Below are positions 21,417-27,058 of a stretch of DNA of 64,000 nucleotides, piece after piece. The DNA is from Agromyces sp. 3263 (GTDB lineage: Bacteria; Actinomycetota; Actinomycetes; Actinomycetales; Microbacteriaceae), in the NCBI RefSeq assembly GCF_031456545.1, contig NZ_JAVDUV010000001.1, positions 868,001 through 932,000 on the forward strand. Reading direction: 5' to 3'. The notes under the pieces were generated by a model. That model saw only the letters and a list, made by a program, of their open reading frames with translations. It was not told the DNA's origin and did no database searches. Position numbers and translations under genes: made by a program. Each line of letters begins with the position of its first letter. Within the stretch, counting starts at the first letter, position 1.

Positions 21417-21446
21417 GTCACAGCCGAGTCATCCGCCCGGTCTGAG
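21417..21446 (+). promoter_or_regulatory. SigJ-type promoter element before the alpha/beta hydrolase
   Basis: GTCACA (21417-21422), 16 bases, GGTCTGAG (21439-21446). The same two blocks with the same spacing precede sigJ (22347) and the NmrA-like gene (23677). ECF41 sigma factors are described as using a TGTCACA-like -35 and a CGTC-like -10, so this fits. Confidence 0.75.
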
Positions 21447-21500
21447 CTTGCAACACACCGCCCGTGGGGTCACGGGCGCCAGGTCGAGAAGGGACCCACC

Positions 21501-22238
21501 ATGTCAGGCCAGAATCCCACCGTCGTGCTCGTGCACGGCGCGTTCGCCGAGTCCGCCAGCTGGAACGGCGTCATCGAACGGCTCCACGCCGAGGGCGTCA
21601 CCTCCGTCGCGGCCGCCAATCCGCTGCGCCGCCTTGACGGCGATGCCGCATACGTGCGCGACGTCGTTGCCGCCGTCGAGGGGCCGGTCGTGCTCGTCGG
21701 CCACTCGTACGGCGGGCTCGTGATCAGCGAGGCCTCCGCGGACAACGACCAGGTCGCGGCACTCGTGTACGTGTCGGCATTCACGCCCGAGACCGGCGAC
21801 AGTGCGTTCTCGCTCTCGGCGAGCGCGCCGGGCTCGACCCTCGGCGATGCGCTCGACGCACACCCGATCGCGACCGGCGGCATCGAGTTCGTCATCCGGC
21901 GCGACCGATTCCACGAGCAGTTCGCCGCCGACGTCCCGGCGCAGGTCGCCGGCCTGATGGGCGCGACGCAGCGGCCCGTCACCGAGGCCGCGCTGAAGGA
22001 CGCCGTGCAGGCGACCGTGCCCGGCTGGAAGGACCGTCCGTCGTGGCACGTGTTCGGCAGCGAGGACCGCAACATCCCGGCCGCCGTGCTCCGCGCCGGA
22101 GCCGAGCGCGCCGGCTCCCGCAGCACGAACGAGCTCGCGGGCGCCTCGCATGCGACGAGCGTCTCGCAGCCCGAGGCCGTCGCCGAGACGATCCTCGAGG
22201 CCGTCCGCGCCGTCGCAGCCGAGCGCGCCGCCGCGTAG
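21501..22238 (+). CDS. Alpha/beta hydrolase
   Basis: 245 residues, a short single-domain hydrolase: VVLVHGAFAESASWNGVIERL (oxyanion region), nucleophile S69 in VGHSYGG, VYVSAFTPETGDS, and a C-terminal HVFGSEDRNIP (acid) with GASHATSVSQPEAV (His). This set is typical of the EstA/salicylate-esterase-like plant and bacterial group. GAAGGG precedes the ATG. A SigJ-type promoter starts 84 bases upstream, placing it in the same regulon as the neighbouring ECF41 gene. Confidence 0.88.
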   Translation: MSGQNPTVVLVHGAFAESASWNGVIERLHAEGVTSVAAANPLRRLDGDAAYVRDVVAAVEGPVVLVGHSYGGLVISEASADNDQVAALVYVSAFTPETGDSAFSLSASAPGSTLGDALDAHPIATGGIEFVIRRDRFHEQFAADVPAQVAGLMGATQRPVTEAALKDAVQATVPGWKDRPSWHVFGSEDRNIPAAVLRAGAERAGSRSTNELAGASHATSVSQPEAVAETILEAVRAVAAERAAA

Positions 22239-22277
22239 TCCGCCGCCGAGCCCGTCCGCGGCGGTGCAGGCCGGTTC

Positions 22278-22311
22278 GGGCGCGCGGGATCCCGCATCGG
22301 GTCTCGCGCCC
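22278..22311 (+). terminator. Terminator-like hairpin after the hydrolase
   Basis: GGGCGCG (22278-22284) pairs with CGCGCCC (22305-22311), and inside it CGGGATCCCG adds secondary pairing. It lies 40 bases after the hydrolase stop and before the sigJ promoter. No T-run. Confidence 0.45.
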
Positions 22312-22346
22312 CCGCGGCATCCGGTGCAGAATCTTCCCCGGATGCC

Positions 22347-22376
22347 GTCACATCCGCGCGCGCCATCCGGTCTCAG
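22347..22376 (+). promoter_or_regulatory. SigJ-type promoter element before sigJ (autoregulation)
   Basis: GTCACA (22347-22352), 16 bases, GGTCTCAG (22369-22376), 49 bases before the sigJ ATG. Matches the elements at 21417 and 23677 in sequence and spacing. Confidence 0.78.
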
Positions 22377-22424
22377 CTGTCAGGGGGCGGATGCGGCCCC
22401 ATCCGCCGACGGGACAGGACCGAC

Positions 22425-23303
22425 ATGGATGCGAACCTCGACGACGCGCTCGACGTCTTCACCGCGGTGCGACCGCGCCTCTTCGGCATCGCCTACCGCA
22501 TGCTCGGCAGTGCGTCGGAGGCCGAGGACCTCGTGCAGGATGCCTGGCTGCGCTGGCAGGGCACCGACCGATCGGTCGTGCAGGACCCGCCCGCGTTCCT
22601 CGCCACGACGACGACGCGCCTCGCGATCAACGCGCTGCAGTCCGCACGCGCCCGCCGCGAGACCTACATCGGCCCGTGGCTGCCCGAGCCGGTCGACACC
22701 AGCGCCGATCCCACCCTCGGCGCCGAACGTGCCGAGGCGCTCGGCTTCGCCGTGCTGGTGATGCTGGAACGGCTCACGCCCACCGAGCGGGCCGCCTACG
22801 TGCTGCGCGAGGCGTTCGCCTACCCCTACGACCAGATCTGCGAGATCGTGCAGGTCTCCGAACCCGCCGCCCGTCAACTCGTGAGCCGCGCCCGCAAGCA
22901 CCTCGCGGGCGAACGACGGCGCGAGGTCACCCAGGCCGAGCAGCGCCGCCTGCTCGACGCGTTCCTCGCGGCCGCACGCACCGGCGACCTCGAGGAGCTC
23001 GAGCACCTGTTCGCCGAGGACGTCGTGTCCTACTCCGACGGCGGCGGCGTCGTGCGGGCGTCGAAGTTCCCGGTGATCGGGCGCGAGCGGGTCGCGAAGT
23101 TCATCCGTGCGTTCCACACGCACTTCTGGGAGGGCGTCACCACGAGCCCCGTCGAGACGAACGGCCAGCCCTCGGTCCTCCTCTCGAGGGAGGGCGTGAC
23201 GTTCGCGGTGGTCACCGTCGTCGCCGCGGCGAACGGCATCGAACAGGTGCTCTGGATGATGAACCCCGAGAAGCTCGCCGCGGTGAGCCCCCGTGCGTCA
23301 TGA
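22425..23303 (+). CDS. sigJ: ECF41-family RNA polymerase sigma factor (SigJ)
   Basis: 292 residues. Region 2: FGIAYRMLGSASEAEDLVQD (20-39). The linker carries WLPEP (85-89), an ECF41 hallmark. Region 4 runs through LTPTERAAYVLREAFAYPYD and SEPAARQLVSRARKHL (117-160). The fused NTF2-like regulatory domain follows (about 172-292) with DGGG at 205-208 and NPEKL at 280-284, the counterpart of the NPDKL motif. ECF41 factors have no separate anti-sigma factor; this tail controls them. The gene has its own matching promoter upstream and the next gene overlaps its end by 11 bases. Confidence 0.92.
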   Translation: MDANLDDALDVFTAVRPRLFGIAYRMLGSASEAEDLVQDAWLRWQGTDRSVVQDPPAFLATTTTRLAINALQSARARRETYIGPWLPEPVDTSADPTLGAERAEALGFAVLVMLERLTPTERAAYVLREAFAYPYDQICEIVQVSEPAARQLVSRARKHLAGERRREVTQAEQRRLLDAFLAAARTGDLEELEHLFAEDVVSYSDGGGVVRASKFPVIGRERVAKFIRAFHTHFWEGVTTSPVETNGQPSVLLSREGVTFAVVTVVAAANGIEQVLWMMNPEKLAAVSPRAS

Positions 23304-23643
23304 CGTCTGCGCCGCCCGCCTCCGCGCCGCCCTGCAGCAGGGCGACGAGCTGGCGCTGGCGAGCGTGCTGAACCCCGAGATCCGCCTCTCCATCGATGCC
23401 GGCGACGAGACGGGGGGTGAGGTACACGGCCGCGCCCGCGTCATCCGCGTGCTGCGGGAACGACTGGCGAACCGGGCGGATGCCGCGATCGACGCCGTGC
23501 ACGTGAACGGCGCCCCCGCGCTTGCATTGCGGCGCACCGACGGGCAGGTGCTCGGTGTGCTCTCCTTCGACCTCGGCGGCGGCACCATCGAGCGGCTGTG
23601 GCTGACGACGTCCGCCGGCAAGCTCTCGCACTGGAATCGATGA
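23293..23643 (+). CDS. Stand-alone NTF2-like protein resembling the SigJ regulatory tail
   Basis: 116 residues from GTG 23293, overlapping the last 11 bases of sigJ. The fold matches the C-terminal domain of ECF41 factors: LRAALQQGDELALASVLNPE, HGRARVIRVLRERLAN, VHVNGAPALALRRTDGQVLG, VLSFDLGGGTIERLWLTTSA and a final GKLSHW that echoes the KL motif of SigJ-type tails. It could modulate SigJ in trans or bind the same ligand; this is inference from position and resemblance. The start could be a later codon, but the overlap supports coupling. Confidence 0.65.
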   Translation: MRHDVCAARLRAALQQGDELALASVLNPEIRLSIDAGDETGGEVHGRARVIRVLRERLANRADAAIDAVHVNGAPALALRRTDGQVLGVLSFDLGGGTIERLWLTTSAGKLSHWNR

Positions 23644-23676
23644 ACGCGGCGGCTCGATGCGTCTTCGGCTCATTCC

Positions 23677-23706
23677 GTCACAGATCGGTCGGCGACCCGG
23701 TCAGAG
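23677..23706 (+). promoter_or_regulatory. SigJ-type promoter element before the NmrA-like gene
   Basis: GTCACA (23677-23682), 16 bases, GGTCAGAG (23699-23706), 50 bases before the ATG at 23756. Third copy of the motif within 2.3 kb. Confidence 0.78.
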
Positions 23707-23755: not shown

Positions 23756-24517
23756 ATGAAGATCGTCGTCATCGGAGGCACGGGCCTCATCGGCTCCAAG
23801 GTCGTCGAGCACCTCGCCGAGTACGGTCACGAAGCCGTCCCGGCGTCGCCGAACTCGGGCGTCAACACCATCACGGGCGAGGGCCTCGCCGACGTGCTCG
23901 CCGGCGCGAACGTCGTCGTGGACGTCTCGAACTCCCCGTCGTTCGCCGACGACGACGTGGTCGCGTTCTTCACCACGTCGACGAACAACCTGCTCGACGC
24001 CGCGCGCGAGGCCGGAGTGACGCACCACGTCGCCCTGTCGGTCGTCGGTGCCGACCGCCTGCCGAACAGCGGCTACCTGCGTGCGAAGGTCGCCCAGGAG
24101 AAGCTGATCGAGGAGTCGGGGCTGCCCTTCTCCATCGTGCGCGCGACCCAGTTCTACGAGTTCGTCGGGCGCATCGCCGACGAGGCCACCGTCGACGGCA
24201 CGGCCCGGCTCAGTACGGGGCTGATGCAGCCGATGGCGGCCGCGGACGTCTCGGCCGCCGTCGCACGCGTCGCCGCCGGTGAACCCGTCAACGGCACCGT
24301 CGAGATCGGCGGCCCCAAGCGCGTCGGCCAGGACGAGCTCGTTCGCACCGCGCTCGCAGCGAAGGGCGACCCTCGCAGGGTGGTCGGCGACCCCGAGGCG
24401 CACTACTTCGGCACCCGGCTCGAGGGCACCGAGCTCGTTCCCGGCCCCGACGCGCAGCTGTCGACGACGACGTTCGCCGAATGGCTGGCTGCGCAGCCGG
24501 CCGCGGTGCAGGGATAG
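23756..24517 (+). CDS. NmrA-like NAD(P)-binding (SDR-a) protein
   Basis: 253 residues. Rossmann start MKIVVIGGTGLIGSKVVEHL, then GANVVVDVSNSPSF, STNNLLDAAREAGVTHHVAL, a LRAKVAQEKLIEESGLPFSI segment typical of atypical SDR/NmrA proteins, and QPMAAADVSAAVARVAAGEP with NGTVEIGGPKR. The classical YxxxK is missing, as usual for NmrA-like members, which act as redox sensors or reductases. Epimerase/reductase genes of this type are known ECF41 partners, and a matching promoter is present. GGAAGG precedes the ATG. Confidence 0.85.
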   Translation: MKIVVIGGTGLIGSKVVEHLAEYGHEAVPASPNSGVNTITGEGLADVLAGANVVVDVSNSPSFADDDVVAFFTTSTNNLLDAAREAGVTHHVALSVVGADRLPNSGYLRAKVAQEKLIEESGLPFSIVRATQFYEFVGRIADEATVDGTARLSTGLMQPMAAADVSAAVARVAAGEPVNGTVEIGGPKRVGQDELVRTALAAKGDPRRVVGDPEAHYFGTRLEGTELVPGPDAQLSTTTFAEWLAAQPAAVQG

Positions 24518-26031: not shown

Positions 26032-26907
26032 TCAGCGGGTGAGCGCCGCCTCCTCGTCGAGCCAGCCCAGCTTGTCGGGGTTCGCAACGGAGTACAGGCG
26101 TGCGATCCGCCCGTCCGCGATGTCCATGCTGACCGCGCCGACCAGCTCCCCGGCGACCTCGACGCGCACGCCCGGCTGGCCGTTGACCCAGATCGGACGA
26201 GCCGTGAACGGCCGGTCGAGCTTCGAGAGCCCGCCCATGAGGTACCGCGCCATCTTGTCGGCGCCGACGATGGGCCGGCGAGCGGCCCCGCGCACCACTC
26301 CGCCGCCATCGGCGACGGACACCACGTCGGGCGCGAGCACGTCCATGAGCCCCTGCACGTCGCCGGAGCTCACGGCCGCGATGAATCTCGCCACGACGGC
26401 CTCCTGCTCGGTCCGGTCCACGGTCACCCGCGGACGGCGCGCTGCGACGTGGTCCTTCGCGCGGTGCGCGATCTGCCGCACGGCGGCGGGCGTCTTGTCG
26501 ACCGCCTTGGCGATCTCGTCGTAGGGCACGTCGAACACCTCGCGCAGCACGAACACCGCGCGTTCGGTGGGTGCGAGCGTCTCGAGCACGGTGAGCATCG
26601 CCATCGAAACGCTCTCGGCGAGCTCGACGTCGTCGGCGACATCCGGACTCGTGAGCAGCGGCTCGGGCAGCCACTCGCCGACGTACTCCTCGCGGCGCCG
26701 CGACACGGTGCGCAGGTGGTTCAGCGCCTGGCGGGTGACGATCCGCACGAGGTAGGCGCGTGGTTCGCGCACCTCGCCCCGGTCGACGTCCTTCCATCGC
26801 AGCCAGGACTCCTGCAGCACGTCCTCGGCGTCGGCCGCGGAGCCGAGCAGCTCGTAGGCGACGGTGAAGAGCAGGCCGCGATGCGTCACGAACGGGTCTT
26901 CGCTCAT
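26032..26907 (-). CDS. Second ECF41-family sigma factor (SigJ-type)
   Basis: 291 residues from ATG 26907 (MSEDPFVTHRGLLF). Region 2: YELLGSAADAEDVLQESWLRW; WLPEP at 79-83; region 4: LAPTERAVFVLREVFDVPYD with TPAAVRQIAHRAKDHV; NTF2-like tail from about 168 with DGGG at 200-203 and a perfect NPDKL at 276-280. It is a paralogue of the SigJ encoded 3 kb away. A TGTCACA-N16-TGTC element sits about 125 bases upstream of its start, so it too may be autoregulated. The DDN-like gene upstream is on the same strand. Confidence 0.92.
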   Translation of the reverse strand: MSEDPFVTHRGLLFTVAYELLGSAADAEDVLQESWLRWKDVDRGEVREPRAYLVRIVTRQALNHLRTVSRRREEYVGEWLPEPLLTSPDVADDVELAESVSMAMLTVLETLAPTERAVFVLREVFDVPYDEIAKAVDKTPAAVRQIAHRAKDHVAARRPRVTVDRTEQEAVVARFIAAVSSGDVQGLMDVLAPDVVSVADGGGVVRGAARRPIVGADKMARYLMGGLSKLDRPFTARPIWVNGQPGVRVEVAGELVGAVSMDIADGRIARLYSVANPDKLGWLDEEAALTR

Positions 26908-27031
26908 GCGGGCGAGCCTACTTCGGCCGGGCGAGGGGCGATCGGGGCAGGGCCAGGGCTCCGCCAGCCCGTTGGTGCGTTGGTCATGTGTCCTCCGATG
27001 TTGGTGCACGAGTTCGTACCGTCGCCATGGA

Positions 27032-27058
27032 GACACCGGCCGCACGCCGGTTGTGACA
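27032..27058 (-). promoter_or_regulatory. Candidate ECF41 promoter before the second sigma factor
   Basis: Read on the minus strand: TGTCACA (27058-27052), 16 bases, TGTC (27035-27032). The -35 block is the perfect ECF41 heptamer and spacing equals the three plus-strand copies; the -10 block differs in its first base. The leader to the start codon is about 125 bases. Confidence 0.5.

Follow-up and report, generated by a model that had tools for sequence, protein, structure and literature searches.

The window analyzed here, a stretch of 64,000 nucleotides from Agromyces sp. 3263 (contig NZ_JAVDUV010000001.1, positions 868,001 to 932,000 of the forward strand), encodes an ECF41 sigma factor, SigJ, and, directly 3' of its gene, a small SnoaL-type protein, hereafter free SnoaL. 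The combined explanation toward which we lean slightly is that SigJ governs a regulon through one shared promoter motif and that free SnoaL, descended from a duplicate sigma factor, acts on it in trans. Under this proposal, SigJ (22425-23303) would guide RNA polymerase to GTCACA-N16-GGTC-N2-AG promoters, so that sigJ, the alpha/beta hydrolase gene, the NmrA-like reductase gene, and perhaps a distal gene of NmrA-like type are transcribed, while its fused SnoaL domain restrains it in cis. Free SnoaL (23293-23643) would derive from a tandem sigma duplicate that lost sigma2 and sigma4 and would most likely act on SigJ in trans, by pairing with its SnoaL domain or by docking a K-L-x-x-W tail on the WLPEP linker. 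It might function as an inhibitor or a ligand-sensing partner produced whenever SigJ is, with negative feedback as the favored, inferred sign. This apparent detached SigJ regulatory domain is the new element of the present analysis and had been overlooked by the initial annotation, which described a three-gene SigJ regulon. The features concerned are the following.

21417..21446, + strand: putative SigJ-type promoter 1 (GTCACA-N16-GGTC-N2-AG, exact match), before the hydrolase gene; the same hydrolase type is also preceded by the motif in relatives
21501..22238, + strand: alpha/beta hydrolase, 245 amino acids (Pfam Abhydrolase_6, 77 bits)
22347..22376, + strand: putative SigJ-type promoter 2 (exact match), before sigJ, suggesting autoregulation; 25 pre-sigJ contexts in the genus
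22425..23303, + strand: sigJ (SigJ1), ECF41 sigma factor, 292 amino acids (NCBIfam, Pfam, and PDB sequence match)
23293..23643, + strand: free SnoaL protein, 116 amino acids, GTG start, 11-nucleotide overlap with the end of sigJ (profile, PDB, predicted fold, and gene order)
23677..23706, + strand: putative SigJ-type promoter 3 (exact match), before the NmrA-like gene; the genus has 25 contexts ahead of genes of this type
23756..24517, + strand: NmrA-like/NAD(P)-binding reductase, 253 amino acids, the "COE" gene (Pfam NAD_binding_10, 47 bits; NmrA, 36 bits)

The three copies of the motif at 21417, 22347, and 23677, all on the forward strand and with identical N16 spacing as first described, are the sole matches on either strand of the window, against 0.03 expected from 100 dinucleotide shuffles. 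They end 48 to 54 bp and begin 78 to 84 bp before the translation starts (21501, 22425, and 23756), and the base preceding GTCACA is C, not T, at all three. When one mismatch is tolerated, the short form GTCACA-N16-GGTC is not enriched in the window (5 matches versus 5.9 expected by chance); hence, the signal depends on the exact motif. A search of the whole genome (4.07 Mb) with GTCACA-N16-GGTC, of the kind proposed in the initial annotation, returned six matches versus none for the reversed control pattern: the three window sites, one before the distal NmrA-like gene, one located in a gene, and one in an intergenic stretch with no evident target. The distal gene (255 amino acids, contig C1, about 782.1 to 783.0 kb) is preceded by TGTCACA-N16-CGGTC, which ends 59 bp upstream and lacks the AG; genes resembling it have the full motif upstream in some relatives.

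The motif also tracks the sigma factor across the genus. In a sample of 60 Agromyces genomes, 30 of which possess a SigJ1 ortholog (identity of 76% or more), the full motif has 107 matches, with 104 in the SigJ1-bearing genomes (at least one in each) versus 3 in those without sigJ (one each in G010, G045, and G049), and its reversed control has a single match. These matches reduce to 104 distinct 45-base contexts, 96 of which have a called open reading frame (ORF) starting on the same strand within 200 bp downstream, at a median of 53 bp past the -10; this figure is approximate because the crude ORF caller mis-called at least one gene, as in L166, where a 600-amino-acid ORF swallows a motif that precedes the hydrolase in the overlapping locus L044. 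Three of the 96 also lie inside a called ORF. The other eight contexts comprise two antisense within genes, two within a same-strand called ORF (one a likely mis-call), and four that are neither. The genes preceded by the 96 contexts are sigJ (25), the window-type NmrA gene (25), the window-type hydrolase (20), two further hydrolase types (7 and 6), a protein of about 150 amino acids (2), and 11 single targets, among which at least four are NmrA-like genes resembling the distal gene. Downstream of GGTC, 99 Agromyces motifs read N-N-A(0.89)-G(0.97)-C/T-T(0.82). Taken together, the shuffle expectation, the distribution in the genus, and the location before start codons lead us to reject a chance or genic repeat.

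The sigma factor itself is readily classified. SigJ1 scores 54 bits with Sigma70_r2 and 50 bits with r4_2 in Pfam, and it exceeds the cut-offs of the NCBIfam models TIGR02957 (347 bits) and PRK09636 (289 bits, a full-length match). Its C-terminal SnoaL_2 match (26.7 bits) is slightly below the cut-off of 27. The top PDB sequence match is SigJ (5xe7, E = 1.6e-46), reaching residue 238 of 292; the protein has a GPWLPEP linker and, in the C-terminal SnoaL domain, MMNPEKL, the NPDKL motif thus reading NPEKL here. Judged from sequence, sigJ encodes an ECF41 factor, very probably with the hydrolase, sigJ, and the NmrA-like reductase as its regulon. The earlier proposals that SigJ controls itself and a nearby oxidoreductase-type gene, and that the hydrolase is an extra member, are thus supported by the motif and its recurrence in relatives. 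The three genes originally assigned to the regulon stand, and the regulon appears to have been drawn too small, as it omits the gene at 23293-23643 in the sigJ unit, the possible distal NmrA-like gene, and the further hydrolases in relatives.

The relationship of free SnoaL to SigJ emerges from profile comparisons. The protein matches PRK09636 at positions 173 to 290 (E = 7e-11, under the model's full-length cut-off), and its family profile, compared by sequence with the PDB, matches best to residues 179 to 297 of SigJ, the regulatory domain (E = 2e-10). The AlphaFold2 prediction has a mean predicted local distance difference test (pLDDT) score of 94, and in a second structural comparison the SnoaL domain of SigG1 is the top match. 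The K-L-x-x-W tail is invariant in 53 aligned sequences, comprising 42 of the 56 locus copies and 11 database relatives (14 copies, among them L075, were left out). Some relatives (P0025, P0037, P0072, and P0090) are publicly named "siderophore-interacting protein" or "RNA polymerase sigma-70 factor," apparently as misannotations.

A free SnoaL gene lies directly 3' of sigJ in all 30 Agromyces orthologs (L020, L034, and L038 represent the same genomes as L003, L051, and L075), in L080 (Leifsonia sp. Leaf264), and, among 69 other-genus loci, in 26, including those of Kribbella, Microbacterium, Paractinoplanes, Herbiconiux, and Cellulosimicrobium. The two genes overlap by 8, 11, or 14 nucleotides, in the same relative frame, in 29 of the 30 Agromyces loci. 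A broader model applied to 80 named loci recovers a free-only copy in 37, a SnoaL ORF with a sigma hit in 6, and neither in 37; one of the six, L112, is an alternate-frame artefact with a free copy. Apparent sigma remnants in Kribbella (L099, L112, and L115) were likewise rejected as alternate-frame readings overlapping the main sigma.

Several loci present what look like intermediates. In Arthrobacter (L137), Cryobacterium (L110), and Herbiconiux ginsengi (L102), a second sigma-like protein of about 288 to 300 amino acids replaces free SnoaL after sigJ; these proteins score 136 to 181 bits with a custom sigma-core profile versus 279 to 289 for the main sigmas, match sigma4 of Pfam weakly and sigma2 not at all, and show an altered AEDxVQ stretch of sigma2, which we take to serve core binding. 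In Actinophytocola (L105) and Actinoplanes (L111), a partial sigma2 is joined straight to the SnoaL domain and sigma4 is lacking. A profile database search found 266 relatives; among the 120 listed, 14 are of 208 to 224 amino acids, 5 of these with an annotated sigma2. In the tree, 57 free and 5 second-protein SnoaL domains fall in a clade of 63 (support 0.92) that stands apart from the other 149 C-termini of main sigmas, and the 63rd member, L112_166, is a free SnoaL from Kribbella that a longer ORF encloses. This series is most simply read as a tandem duplicate shedding its sigma domains, with the direction of descent taken from the degenerate sigma2 and not from an outgroup. We tentatively suggest that free SnoaL could be a trans-acting regulatory subunit of SigJ that arose from such a duplicate by losing first conserved sigma2 residues and then sigma4 together with sigma2, which would leave the control domain alone to pair with the functional sigma.

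Several observations weigh against this interpretation. Of the 80 named loci, 37 have no free SnoaL-type ORF after sigJ, and in G049 the motif precedes the NmrA gene though a SigJ1 ortholog was not detected. The median ratio of nonsynonymous to synonymous substitution rates (dN/dS) is 0.58 for free SnoaL versus 0.24 for sigJ (433 usable of 435 pairs), and its mean pairwise identity is about 51%, compared with 83% (sigma core) and 72% (C terminus) in SigJ. The window copy has SAGKL where 19 of 26 other-genus copies have NPxKL, none of the 31 Agromyces-type copies has NP.KL, and the L075 copy, outside the tail alignment, has R in place of K110. By Foldseek E-value, ordinary NTF2-like proteins outrank the two sigma factors (SigG1 is 11th and SigJ 15th), and hence the fold alone also fits an enzyme or ligand carrier. 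The faster change and the absence from many loci leave room for an enzyme or a relic.

The enzyme alternative accepts the same regulon and sees in free SnoaL a co-transcribed enzyme or small-molecule binder, ketosteroid-isomerase-like, that makes no contact with SigJ. The NTF2/SnoaL fold is common to many isomerases and cyclases, several of which are among the matches placed above the sigma factors, dN/dS is moderate, and the remaining genes of the regulon encode enzymes. Nevertheless, the nearest sequence relative among solved structures is the SigJ regulatory domain, the protein shares a clade with the C-termini of the degenerate second sigma proteins, and its tail is almost invariant; we regard this alternative as unlikely, if the most serious of those considered. 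A second alternative, that free SnoaL is a decaying, functionless leftover of the duplicate, would account for its faster evolution relative to sigJ, the missing NP.KL in Agromyces, the loss of the sigma domains, and the patchy distribution. Yet the ORF is open in all 30 Agromyces orthologs and starts 8 to 14 nucleotides inside the end of sigJ in 29 of them, dN/dS is at or below 1 in 429 of the 433 usable pairs, the predicted fold is confident, and the gene is kept in several genera, making a relic rather improbable. An action of free SnoaL on SigJ in trans is, in our estimation, somewhat more probable than not.

The remaining question for the regulon is whether SigJ is the factor that reads the motif, as the window genome has at least four ECF41-like sigmas with GTCACA-N16-NGTC motifs nearby. 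The retrieved loci contain 167 distinct ECF41-like sigma ORFs; a search of 350 bp for motifs with GTCACA fixed and spacers of 15 to 17 gave N16 as the spacer in all 136 nearby motifs. Among the 103 full-length sigmas of the SigJ1 clade, 31 have no motif in the stretch searched; the 112 motifs of the clade comprise 97 GGTC, 13 TGTC, 1 AGTC, 1 GGTT, and 0 CGTC. The clade is mostly actinobacterial, and GGTC or TGTC accounts for 110 of the 112 motifs across genera, while three other Agromyces paralog clusters (16 sigmas) have CGTC in 15 of 15. The suggestion that the GGTC -10 is a lineage-specific variant therefore had to be abandoned. In a second-SigJ clade of 23 sigmas there are 2 TGTC motifs, and 21 sigmas have none in the stretch searched; TGTCACA-N16-TGTCTCC has 20 matches in 19 of the 60 genomes, 16 of them no more than 0.8 kb ahead of a sigma of the second-SigJ type, mostly beyond the 350-bp stretch. 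For six clustered paralogs and a few others, the stretch searched yielded no motif. Each motif-bearing ECF41-like group thus appears to have kept the -35 and spacer and changed the -10. A reading of the motif by another ECF41-like paralog or regulator is very unlikely, as the GGTC-type motifs follow SigJ1 (104 versus 3 matches) and the other paralog clusters with a motif carry CGTC or TGTC. Least probable of all is an occasional fusion of SigJ and free SnoaL through frameshifting at the overlap, which the conserved relative frame in 29 of 30 Agromyces loci might suggest, but the two ORFs are 12 to 121 nucleotides apart in 23 of the 26 other-genus loci.

Residue 69 of the sigma covaries with the first -10 base: N pairs with G or T (79 counts), D with C (15 counts), and T with A and with G (one count each). 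This association is confounded with descent because few clades are involved, and that residue 69 of SigJ reads this base is offered as a hypothesis only. In Herbiconiux sp. VKM Ac-1786 (L095), a SigJ-clade sigma has an AGTC -10 before its own gene, and the counts imply T, not N, at residue 69; this is possibly a natural change of specificity.

Other ECF41-like genes were noted. The window contains a second SigJ-type ECF41 sigma (26032-26907, - strand) with a promoter-like TGTCACA-N16-TGTCTCC at 27029-27058 (- strand) and a leader ORF of about 27 codons between motif and sigma; in the relative G031 (L164), a 198-amino-acid gene lies there. Two more ECF41-like sigmas in the window genome, at C2:247498-247557 (L012 and L013) and C2:930360-930385 (L019), are accompanied by divergent NmrA/epimerase-like genes and by -10 motifs reading CGTC, an arrangement known from ECF41. 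SigJ-like proteins of about 193 to 219 amino acids without a SnoaL domain occur in five Agromyces genomes (L160, L161, L162, L163, and L164); near them, in G004, G047, G050, and G001, are large genes that by eye resemble BTAD/AfsR-type regulators, and SigJ-type motifs lie before genes in the vicinity. An NDH-2 (NADH dehydrogenase) gene was rejected as a conserved target in the genus, since GTCACA-N16-KGTCTTA is found in only 7 of 60 genomes. Its NDH-2 context is present in both genomes inspected of these seven (the window genome and G055); in the window genome, an NDH-2-like gene is preceded by GTCACA-N16-TGTCTTA at C1:2319769-2319797 (L011, L168, and L242). In five Actinoplanes/Paractinoplanes loci an NDH-2-like gene directly follows the sigJ homolog, and in one Streptomyces locus one lies nearby.

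If the proposal is correct, two proteins would together control ECF41 activity in various Actinobacteria, and four or more ECF41-like paralogs of one genome would be insulated from one another via different -10 letters on a common -35 and spacer. The recurrent free SnoaL, with its apparent intermediates of descent, would make ECF41 switching testable with two small proteins, and the paralog-specific -10 letters would offer a natural promoter set, with shared -35 and spacer, for how an ECF sigma2 reads the first -10 base.

Several parallels are suggested by known systems. Like the ECF41 factors Ecf41Bli and Ecf41Rsp, SigJ1 shows the order sigma2, WLPEP linker, sigma4, and extension, a TGTCACA-type -35 with a 16-bp spacer, an oxidoreductase/epimerase-type neighbor (here, the NmrA/NAD_binding_10 gene at 23756-24517), and the motif before both sigma and neighbor. 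In ECF41 factors the C-terminal SnoaL/NTF2-like extension measures about 100 amino acids, the spacer is 16 +/- 1, and the neighbor may also be a carboxymuconolactone decarboxylase gene. The ECF41 promoter consensus published by Wecke et al. (2012, PMC3426412) reads TGTCACA-n16-CGTC, and TGTT was mapped as well; the window sites differ from this majority consensus in having GGTC at all three. The same account generalizes ECF41 factors as having a single target transcript and mentions hypothetical genes between sigma and neighbor (PMC3426412), whereas here the motif points to three putative promoters and a possible distal one. It further describes control by the fused domain, with no obvious anti-sigma partner: removing the last part of the extension raised activity about 20-fold in B. 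licheniformis and 120-fold in R. sphaeroides, removing it wholly abolished activity, and inactive dimers formed via the extension were, for the authors, an attractive but completely hypothetical possibility (PMC3426412). Unlike ECF41 systems as there described, the present one co-encodes a second, free SnoaL protein.

SigJ of Mycobacterium tuberculosis (PDB 5xe7) is the solved structure closest in sequence to SigJ1 and also to the profile of free SnoaL. In our literature search, which drew on partial texts, we recognized no description of a free SnoaL partner of an ECF41 factor, and an earlier mention may exist. Degenerate or partial sigmas as regulatory partners are represented by the sigma-like domain of PhyR and the split sigma SigO-RsoA; here, unlike in those systems, the sigma domains are gone and the regulatory domain remains. 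The second sigma-like protein of L102 has a sub-threshold PhyR hit.

A trans role of free SnoaL has a precedent in kind in SigG1-RsfG (ECF56) of Streptomyces tsukubaensis, where a co-transcribed downstream protein binds and antagonizes a SnoaL-bearing sigma (PMC7730460). For the ECF41 extension, NPDKL is reported or predicted to touch the WLPEP linker (PMC7730460). SigG1 is reported there to lack NPDKL, unlike SigJ1, which has NPEKL and scores above the SigJ/TIGR02957 cut-off, and SigJ1 is accordingly not of the ECF56 type; RsfG is reported without Pfam domains and is likened to free SnoaL by description only. The two systems share a SnoaL-bearing ECF sigma together with a small protein co-encoded downstream.

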